Positions 7,355 to 9,594 of a stretch of DNA of 64,000 nucleotides are shown here, piece after piece. The stretch comes from Campylobacter sputorum (GTDB taxonomy: Bacteria > Campylobacterota > Campylobacteria > Campylobacterales > Campylobacteraceae). A program made the translations under genes and the position numbers. The stretch spans positions 1,054,001 to 1,118,000 of the forward strand of contig NZ_CP019685.1 of the NCBI RefSeq assembly GCF_002220775.1. Direction: 5' to 3'. Numbering within the stretch: the first letter of the stretch is position 1; each line of letters begins with the position of its first letter. The notes under the pieces were generated by a model. The model was not told the origin of the DNA and ran no database searches. It saw only the letters and a list, made by a program, of their open reading frames with translations.

Positions 7355-7365
7355 AATAGTTTACT

Positions 7366-7388
7366 TCTAGATGCTTTAAGCATCTAGA
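7366..7388 (-). terminator. Palindrome downstream of the chemoreceptor gene
   Basis: Perfect 11-base arms TCTAGATGCTT and AAGCATCTAGA around a single T, 27 bases after the chemoreceptor stop. A one-base loop must open to three or more in RNA. There is no run of T after it on either strand, so it is a weak terminator candidate; it may instead be a 3'-end stabilising hairpin or a protein-binding palindrome. Confidence 0.4.
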
Positions 7389-7414
7389 AAATTTATATAT
7401 TAAGGGGGATTAAT

Positions 7415-9400
7415 TTAAAACCTATTATTCCTTACACTCTCAACTATATCTTTAGACATAGTATCAAGTTCTTTTGTAATGCTGTTTGTATTGTTTGCAA
7501 TATTAACATTTTCTTTTGTTAAAGCATCTACATCAGCTACAGAGTTATTTATCATAGATATTGCTTCAGTTTGTTCTCTAATGCTTTCACTCATCTCATT
7601 TATTGATTGAGTTAAAACATTTACATTAGCTTCTATCTCAGTTAAAGATTTACCTGTTTTTTCAGCAAGTTTTCTAACTTCATCAGCAACAACTGCAAAT
7701 CCTCTTCCTGCTTCTCCAGCTCTTGCTGCTTCTATAGCAGCATTAAGTGCTAGAAGATTAGTTTGTTCTGATATATCTTTTATAATAGTTATAACATTTT
7801 TAATCTCTTCACTTTGAGCTATAACTTCTGTTGTTTTTTGATTAATTGAGTTCATTGAGCTAGACATCTCTTCAACTGCAGCTGCACTTTCTTCAAGTGA
7901 ACTAGCTTGTTTTTTAGCTGAAGCTGTTATTTGATCTACTGCTTTAGATAATAGATCTGATTTTTGTTGTAAGCTCTCTGCTTGAGATAGATTTTGTTTA
8001 AGCATATTTGATATTTCAATGCCTAAAGTATTTATACCTTGAGCAATAACACCTTTATCTTCTATAGAAGTTGTAAAGTCTTTGTTTTGGAAAGATTTTA
8101 ATAAATTTAGTATATTATGTCCATTATCTGCTATAAGTGAGACTAATGTTGTTTGTAACTCTTTAAATGCTTCTTTTAGATTATTAAGTGCTGGATTTGA
8201 AGAATTTGCTTCAAATGATACTAAGAAGTTACCTTCTTTTATCTCATCTACAAATGTATTAGCTTGTTTTATAAATACTTCTTCATCAGATAAATTCTTT
8301 TTAGTTTTTTCAATGTTTTCATTAATAGCTTTAGCCATAGCTCCAAATTCATCTTTTGTTTTTACATTTATTGTATTAGCATCTTTTGATTCATGATTTA
8401 TAAATTTAAATACATTGTTTAGACCTGATTGGATTATAGAGATTGGTTTTAAAGCTCTTGTTATTATGAAAGTTAAGATAGATACTATAAGTATAATAAA
8501 TATAGTTGAAGTTACACTTTGACTTTTAATTATATAACTTAGTGTGCTATCATAATCACTCATTGAGTTTGCTGAACAAATAAGCCAGTTAGCAGCTTCG
8601 TATTTTTCGCAAGCACCAACTTTATGATCTCCCATAAAGTCATATTCAAAAGGTTTGTTTCCAAATTCTTTAAATTTACTTGTAAATGTATTAAAAGCAT
8701 CTACGGCATCTTTTGAATTCGACATTACAAATTCTTTATTTGGATGTGCTAATATTTGATTGGAATTTAAATCCATTATATTTACTAGGGATGTTTTTGT
8801 AGGTTTTAAACTATTTGCTGCATTAGACAATATTTCTGTATGTATATCTGTTCCTACAGCACCAACTACTTTTCCATCTACAACAATTGCTCTTGCAAGA
8901 CTAACAACAATTTTGTTATTCTCTATATATATCTTTGAAACATATGCTCTAGAAGTATCACTAGATGCGCCTTTATACCAATCTGTATTTCTAGCATCAT
9001 AATTTATCTGTTTACCATGTATTTCGAATTTTGTAGTTCCATCACCATTAAAAATTATACTATAAACCTCTCCAGTATCTGCAAAGCCAACATAAAATTC
9101 TTGAAAATCAAGTACAGGACCTATACTTTCTAATCTAGACCTAATAGCATCCTTATCATCTAAAAGATAAGGATTTGCTCCTAAATACTTGGCAAAATTA
9201 TTTATAGCAAAAACGCGTGTTTTAATATATTGTTCAACATACATTTCTACTGATTTAGTTATAGTTTTTTTATTGCTCATAGATTCGCTTAAAACAACAT
9301 TTTTAGTCGAATTATAGTTTATAAAAGAAAAAACTGTAAAAGAAACGGCTAACAAAAAAAGAATAATAAGCGAAACCTTGCTTGAAACTTTACTCAACAT
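7415..9400 (-). CDS. Methyl-accepting chemotaxis protein with dCACHE sensor
   Basis: Transmembrane chemoreceptor that controls CheA through CheW/CheV. The order over 661 residues is: TM1 (about 11-29), periplasmic double-CACHE sensor (35-285), TM2 (298-316), HAMP-like linker, then a long coiled coil with the conserved tip [20 protein letters not shown] (about 540-560). In the sensor, [11 protein letters not shown] (135-145) matches the dCACHE ligand loop, but the arginine two before WY that marks amino-acid binders is Thr139, so the ligand is probably not a plain amino acid. AAGGAG precedes the ATG. Its promoter contains an eight-G tract. It follows dnaK on the same strand but behind a good terminator. 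Confidence 0.93.
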
Positions 9401-9453
9401 AAAAATACTCCTTATAAATTAATAATTTTTTAGTTAGTAATTTTAAATGATAA

Positions 9454-9480
9454 ATTATATCACTCCCCCCCCGTTGTCAA
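9454..9480 (-). promoter_or_regulatory. Candidate phase-variable sigma-70 promoter of the chemoreceptor
   Basis: On the minus strand: a perfect TTGACA (9475-9480), a 15-base spacer, and a perfect TATAAT (9454-9459), 53 bases before the chemoreceptor ATG. The spacer is AC, eight G, AGTGA. Fifteen bases is two short of the optimum; nine or ten G would give 16 or 17. Slipped-strand changes in the G run should therefore tune or switch this promoter. The sequence facts are direct; the switching is inferred from known promoter-spacer phase variation in other bacteria. Confidence 0.75.
9465..9472 (-). repeat. Homopolymeric G8 tract (C8 on plus strand)
   Basis: Eight consecutive G on the transcribed strand. 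It is the longest G/C homopolymer I can find in the window and stands out in DNA this AT-rich. Tracts of about this length are the classic slippage sites in Campylobacter. It lies exactly inside the promoter spacer of the chemoreceptor gene. Confidence 0.9.
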
Positions 9481-9565
9481 TACATAATAAATAAATTTAG
9501 AAAATATTGTAAACAAAAAAAATTAGATATTTTAAGTAGATTTTATTTCAATGTAACTATTAGTT

Positions 9566-9594
9566 AAAAATTCAAGGGAAAAGATTCCCTTGAA
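9566..9594 (-). terminator. Intrinsic terminator after dnaK
   Basis: On the minus strand TTCAAGGGAA, a four-base loop, TTCCCTTGAA, then TTTTT. A perfect 10-base stem beginning five bases after the dnaK stop. It ends the hrcA-grpE-dnaK transcript before the chemoreceptor promoter. Confidence 0.85.

Follow-up and report, generated by a model that had tools for sequence, protein, structure and literature searches.

Slippage in promoter spacers is known mainly from surface antigens. In Neisseria meningitidis, a homopolymer lies between the −35 and −10 elements of porA (also of fetA and opc), and transcription from the sigma-70-type porA promoter, with its spacer tract of G (or C), drops when the spacing departs from 17 bases (PMC7864442, PMC2791445). 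In Treponema pallidum, a poly-G tract occupies the same position upstream of tp0126, encoding an OmpW homologue, and transcription peaks when the spacing totals 17 bases (PMC7864442). The neisserial examples are single surface-protein genes with proven switching and tp0126 is a single gene for an outer-membrane protein, whereas the tracts described here were read from sequence and precede a set of chemoreceptor paralogs. In the related bacterium Helicobacter pylori, a length-variable G tract of tlpB grades the level of a chemoreceptor (PMC8295292); however, the tlpB tract is part of the mRNA leader, where a small RNA reads it, whereas transcription is not expected to include the present one, which lies 5′ of the −10 element. 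For Campylobacter fetus and Campylobacter lari, the excerpted text of the PhasomeIt catalogue lists phase-variable chemoreceptor (MCP) genes in which G/C tracts measure 8-11, and it describes neither promoter-spacer tracts nor a paralog set (PMC6321876). The group A Tlps of Campylobacter jejuni (Tlp2/3/4) resemble the receptors described below in being dCache paralogs in which varied sensors are joined to conserved, possibly recombining C-terminal halves (PMC6433261, PMC9769880), but the text of the Tlp survey contains neither "promoter" nor "homopolymeric" nor "phase varia". Our searches of the open-licence literature turned up no family of chemoreceptors that has tracts in its promoter spacers; the mechanism is already known, and a chemoreceptor family as its target is new.

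The locus analyzed here lies in a 64,000-nucleotide (nt) stretch of the Campylobacter sputorum genome, referred to as the window. Direct reading of the minus strand from 9480 to 9454 gave TTGACA-AC-G8-AGTGA-TATAAT, and counting of the tract (9472-9465) confirmed that the perfect boxes, 15-base spacing, and eight G residues of the preliminary description were exact. Absent from that description was the extended −10 element, recognized because the 3′ end of the spacer is TGA. The promoter pattern was matched once in the window and in none of 100 dinucleotide-preserving shuffles. The receptor ATG lies 53 bases downstream of the −10 element, and the putative terminator hairpin upstream insulates the receptor gene from transcription of dnaK. 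The possibility that the tract forms a G-quadruplex was rejected, as a single G8 run is too short.

The gene product contains a dCache/PDC sensor (Pfam MCP-like_PDC_1, PF22673, residues 111-192, 35.6 bits versus a cut-off of 27) and a signalling domain (MCPsignal, PF00015, residues 517-650, 110.7 bits versus a cut-off of 34.6), with a weak match to HAMP. The sensor resembles that of a C. jejuni chemoreceptor of known structure (4xmq, E value of 2.9 × 10−10). With both a Cache/PDC sensor and MCPsignal above cut-off, the gene encodes an MCP of the dCache class; MCP-like_PDC_1/dCache_1 sensors plus MCPsignal were found across the receptor set. The coordinates of all features are given in Table 1.

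Table 1. Features of the receptor locus, its paralogs, and other MCP-associated tracts (window positions unless marked as genome)
Feature	Position	Strand	Detail or basis
−35 box TTGACA, perfect	9475..9480	-	Direct reading and paralog comparison
15-base spacer ACGGGGGGGGAGTGA	9460..9474	-	Direct reading; 17 in the identical twins B and C
G8 tract within −35/−10 spacer	9465..9472	-	Paralogs: 10, 10, 9, 11, one interrupted GGGAGGGGG
Extended −10 TGATATAAT	9454..9462	-	TATAAT at 9454-9459; direct reading
Shine-Dalgarno-like AAGGAG	9408..9413	-	7 bases 5′ of ATG; direct reading
Terminator-like hairpin and T run, 3′ of dnaK	9571..9594	-	Sequence inspection
Chemoreceptor (MCP), 661 aa	7415..9400	-	ORF and Pfam
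Sensor half	8657..9400	-	DNA 45-58% identical to D, E, F
Signalling half, from ~residue 249	7415..8656	-	DNA 98-100% identical to five paralogs
Inverted repeat, terminator-like, 3′ of receptor	7365..7389		Sequence inspection
W (window copy)	genome 1061418	-	Spacer ACG8AGTGA (15)
B	genome 1007448	+	Spacer ACG10AGTGA (17)
C	genome 568499	-	Spacer ACG10AGTGA (17)
D	genome 326190	-	Spacer AG9TAGTAGTGC (19)
E	genome 396887	+	Spacer ACGGGAGGGGGAGTGA (16), tract broken by A
F	genome 1593303	-	Spacer ACG11AGTGA (18)
MCP tract G9	genome 403966		1 base before ATG
MCP tract G10	genome 902197		At gene start
Coding G/C tract in MCP gene	genome 658853		
Coding G/C tract in MCP gene	genome 1514574		

While the preliminary description had treated the promoter singly, our search of the genome (1.68 Mb, one contig) revealed six copies of the receptor, W and B to F. 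In all six, perfect TTGACA and TATAAT boxes flank a G-rich spacer, TTGACAA and TATAAT being retained despite differing upstream DNA and leaders; the tract is uninterrupted in five copies, and a perfect extended −10 follows it in five. The distance from the −10 element to the ATG ranges from 31 to 53 bases. The promoters take the form TTGACAAC-Gn-AGTGATATAAT with n of 8, 10, 10, and 11, and a related promoter has G9. Sequences 5′ of TTGACA are unrelated among W, D, E, and F, and conservation among the paralogs starts at the −35 hexamer, which is what a promoter element under selection would show. This edge could instead be a recombination boundary, but selection is favoured because D differs in both leader and spacer. 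The reading frames are open in all six receptors. The sensors of W, B, and C are alike and those of D, E, and F show 28-33% protein identity to W, giving four sensor versions on one signalling half. The three near-identical 2-kb receptor genes, present in both orientations, are also possible sites of inversion or gene conversion, a role proposed for the Tlp-bounded invertible elements of C. jejuni (PMC6433261).

Comparison of W, B, and C, which are copies within one assembled genome and not sequences from different cells, separated the tract from its surroundings. W and B showed no difference from just 3′ of the tract to 2,197 bases past the ATG position, an identity that spans the whole gene plus ~210 bp downstream, and C had one mismatch in the gene, near the stop. 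The three genes are distinguishable by their unique 3′ flanks. The G tract measures 8, 10, and 10 in W, B, and C next to flanks with 0-1 substitution in ~2 kb, so that the tract evolves much faster than its flanks. All other homopolymers in the shared block (A7, T7, and shorter) are of equal length; the G tract alone varies. In principle, these differences could be old, if the tracts had acquired their lengths a single time and later spread along with the gene through duplication or gene conversion, with no switching today. In keeping with this, the signalling halves are homogenised in all six genes, which indicates that the genes copy each other, and B and C match in tract length and, upstream, over 148-201 bp. 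However, W and B lie two Gs apart with zero substitutions in their shared ~2.2 kb, and the tract was therefore altered after the last copying. A search for the MutL family also stands against the copying explanation: it returned zero matches in this genome and was positive in 14 of 14 control genomes. We accordingly give present-day immobility of the tracts hardly any probability. On the MutS side, a single MutS_V match (a MutS-like gene) was found; a lack of MutLS-type repair would promote slippage.

The pattern TTGACA-N14-21-TATAAT was matched 25 times genome-wide versus 5 times for the reversed pattern, and perfect TTGACA/TATAAT pairs are not so rare in this genome, which qualifies the earlier description of perfect −35 boxes as uncommon in the genus. 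The 19 pairs outside the six receptor promoters had spacers of 15 (one), 16 (one), 17 (eleven), 18 (four), 19 (one), and 21 (one) bases, with 15 of the 19 at 17-18 (P ~ 1 × 10−6, assuming eight equal classes). As the pairs peak at 17, the preferred spacing is reached with G10 but not with G8. Three features of the porA and tp0126 type of variation thus recur here, namely, a homopolymer between the boxes, a length that varies next to constant flanks (among copies in one genome), and G10 corresponding to a spacing of 17.

The spacing might nevertheless be irrelevant: if the extended −10 recruited RNA polymerase by itself, mutations of the tract would leave expression unaffected. C. jejuni promoters rely on an extended −10 plus a periodic A/T signal in place of the −35 box (PMC3656092, PMC3824568), and its housekeeping promoters, with the consensus TGxTATAAT, mostly have no −35 box (PMC3656092). 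A promoter with TGATATAAT might fire whatever the spacing, and the spacers of D (19) and of the sister-species copy at the window site (21; see below) are both far from the optimum. We still judge neutrality unlikely. Despite unrelated upstream DNA, none of the six copies has lost TTGACA and four sister copies also have it, the TTGACA/TATAAT pairs of the genome favour 17-18, and neutral runs of G8-11 in five of six copies would be hard to maintain in a low-GC genome. Moreover, the G tract supplants the T-rich stretch that this group has 5′ of the −10 element, making dependence on the −35 box likelier. Since the A/T signal just 5′ of the −10 is displaced, the promoter would lean on its perfect −35 and be sensitive to spacing, and we infer such a dependence for the receptor promoter.

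Control at the RNA level, in the manner of H. pylori tlpB, would require a transcription start 5′ of the tract and a C/U-rich small RNA reading the G run in the leader. The chemoreceptor gene tlpB offers a precedent, as its variable leader G repeat is the target of the sRNA RepG (PMC8295292), and in W a weak promoter-like TTTACA-18-TATTAT ending at 9484 would make the tract part of the leader. However, this element is unique to W and has no counterpart in the paralogs, whereas each of the six copies has its G-rich stretch bracketed by perfect TTGACA and TATAAT boxes, and 3′ of the tract there is a near-consensus extended −10 at a distance of 31-53 bases from the ATG. Leader-based control is therefore very unlikely.

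The reading that we consider highly probable is phase variation through the promoter spacer, by slipped-strand mispairing in the hypermutable G tract of a sigma-70-type promoter. Mispairing at replication would add or remove G residues, and the number of Gs would set the distance between the −35 and extended −10 elements, the strength of initiation, and ultimately receptor transcription. The earlier proposal that the spacer tract would be prone to slippage, with spacing as the variable, is strongly supported by identical boxes around tracts of 8, 10, 10, and 11, the differences among W, B, and C, and the 17-base optimum. W (G8, spacer of 15) is predicted to be weak, the extended −10 perhaps sustaining a basal level, and the addition of two Gs, giving the spacer of 17 found in B and C, would make its promoter near optimal. 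B and C are predicted to be strong, F moderately strong, and D weak or dependent on the extended −10, while E, with its interrupted tract and spacer of 16, is expected to be stable. We infer from the sequences that slippage would occur in growing cells and that tract length would affect transcription and chemotaxis.

Because W, B, and C encode one receptor, the window tract would at most tune dose. The suggestion in the preliminary description that cells would sense different signals does not hold for the window tract alone, given the twins B and C at 17. Loss of the W/B/C sense would need all three promoters to be weak, and the three identical copies blur the phenotype of any single tract. 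As D, E, and F carry other sensors, diversity of sensing would come from the family. With a slippable tract of its own before five of the six receptors, a population would contain cells with differing sensor mixes and doses, and changes in run length, occurring at random, probably raise or lower single sensors differently in different cells. We see about even chances that the repertoire works like an antigen family, in which six fixed chromosomal sites with one homogenised signalling half, exchangeable sensors, and slippable promoters would make sensor and dose random in each cell, and sensor-plus-promoter cassettes would move between sites by recombination in the course of evolution.

The sister species, represented by one genome, the other of the two compared in the genus, carries members of the receptor family at six sites that are syntenic with those of W, B, C, D, E, and F. 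Its sensors match at two of these sites, D (78%) and F (98%), and differ at four. At the window site (dnaK - receptor - agmatine-deiminase-like gene), it carries a different sensor behind the promoter TTGACAACTG10AGATAGTGTATAAT, with a spacer of 21. Of the six syntenic copies, four keep TTGACAAC...TATAAT (spacers of 16, 17, 17, and 21), and the three away from the window site (17, 16, and 17) have short or interrupted tracts. The D ortholog has lost ~75 bp, promoter included, and the copy at site B has a G7 immediately 5′ of the ATG. The sister genes at W, C, D, and F look broken through frameshifts or internal stops, with a promoter deletion in one case, which reflects decay or sequencing error. 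From the comparison of the sites, promoter and sensor appear to move as one, and the two seem to be exchanged together between sites.

Across 153 genomes of the family, TTGACA-N0-8-G7-N4-16-TATAAT was matched 14 times in 10 genomes, and the reversed pattern was not matched. Five of the 14 matches sit in the C. sputorum genome, each before a paralog of the window receptor. A search of the same 153 genomes with promoter DNA gave convincing matches only within the genus (two genomes), and the G8-extended −10 pattern was found in none of 16 genomes of a related genus. Eight genomes of another genus in the family carry TTGACA-G9..16-TATAAT with spacers of 16, 17, or 20 before dynamin/GTPase-like genes, RelA/SpoT-like nucleotidyltransferase genes, or other genes; as these are not MCPs, we rejected them as relatives of the receptor promoter system. 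Our guess is that they form a second set of promoter tracts, possibly related to phage defence. Separately, at least 119 TTGACA-G8-TATAAT stretches were found in unrelated bacteria, with several per MAG in Candidatus Ancillula Gsp477_bin129 and in several uncultured gut Bacilli (e.g., Lapin-016__bin44 and Lapin-017__bin4). This recurrence suggests that there may be large unexplored sets of promoter-spacer phase-variable genes.

The C. sputorum genome contains 20 G/C tracts of at least 8 and 16 MCP genes. Nine of the 20 tracts lie within or just 5′ of MCP genes, versus 0.4 expected (P = 6 × 10−11; P = 1 × 10−5 with the promoter family counted once). Five of the nine are the promoter tracts described above, and the others are listed at the end of Table 1. 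Chemoreceptors are the main tract-bearing class of this genome. Elsewhere, a large ORF (166707) has a G9 directly 5′ of its ATG, and a G8 lies just 5′ of a small ORF that looks secreted (294644). Tracts within coding sequence occur in, among others, a diguanylate-cyclase-like gene (681679). Where a tract occupies a ribosome-binding position, its effect may be on translation, not transcription.

The findings suggest dependence on a −35 box in some Campylobacter promoters whose spacer contains a G tract, in contrast to the usual situation in C. jejuni. Spacers of 15, 17, and 17 on one receptor, together with the interrupted copy, provide natural variants and a stable control, which makes the proposed mechanism directly testable. 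If it is true, chemotaxis in this organism would be bet-hedged, and the target towards which a cell swims would be partly a random draw.
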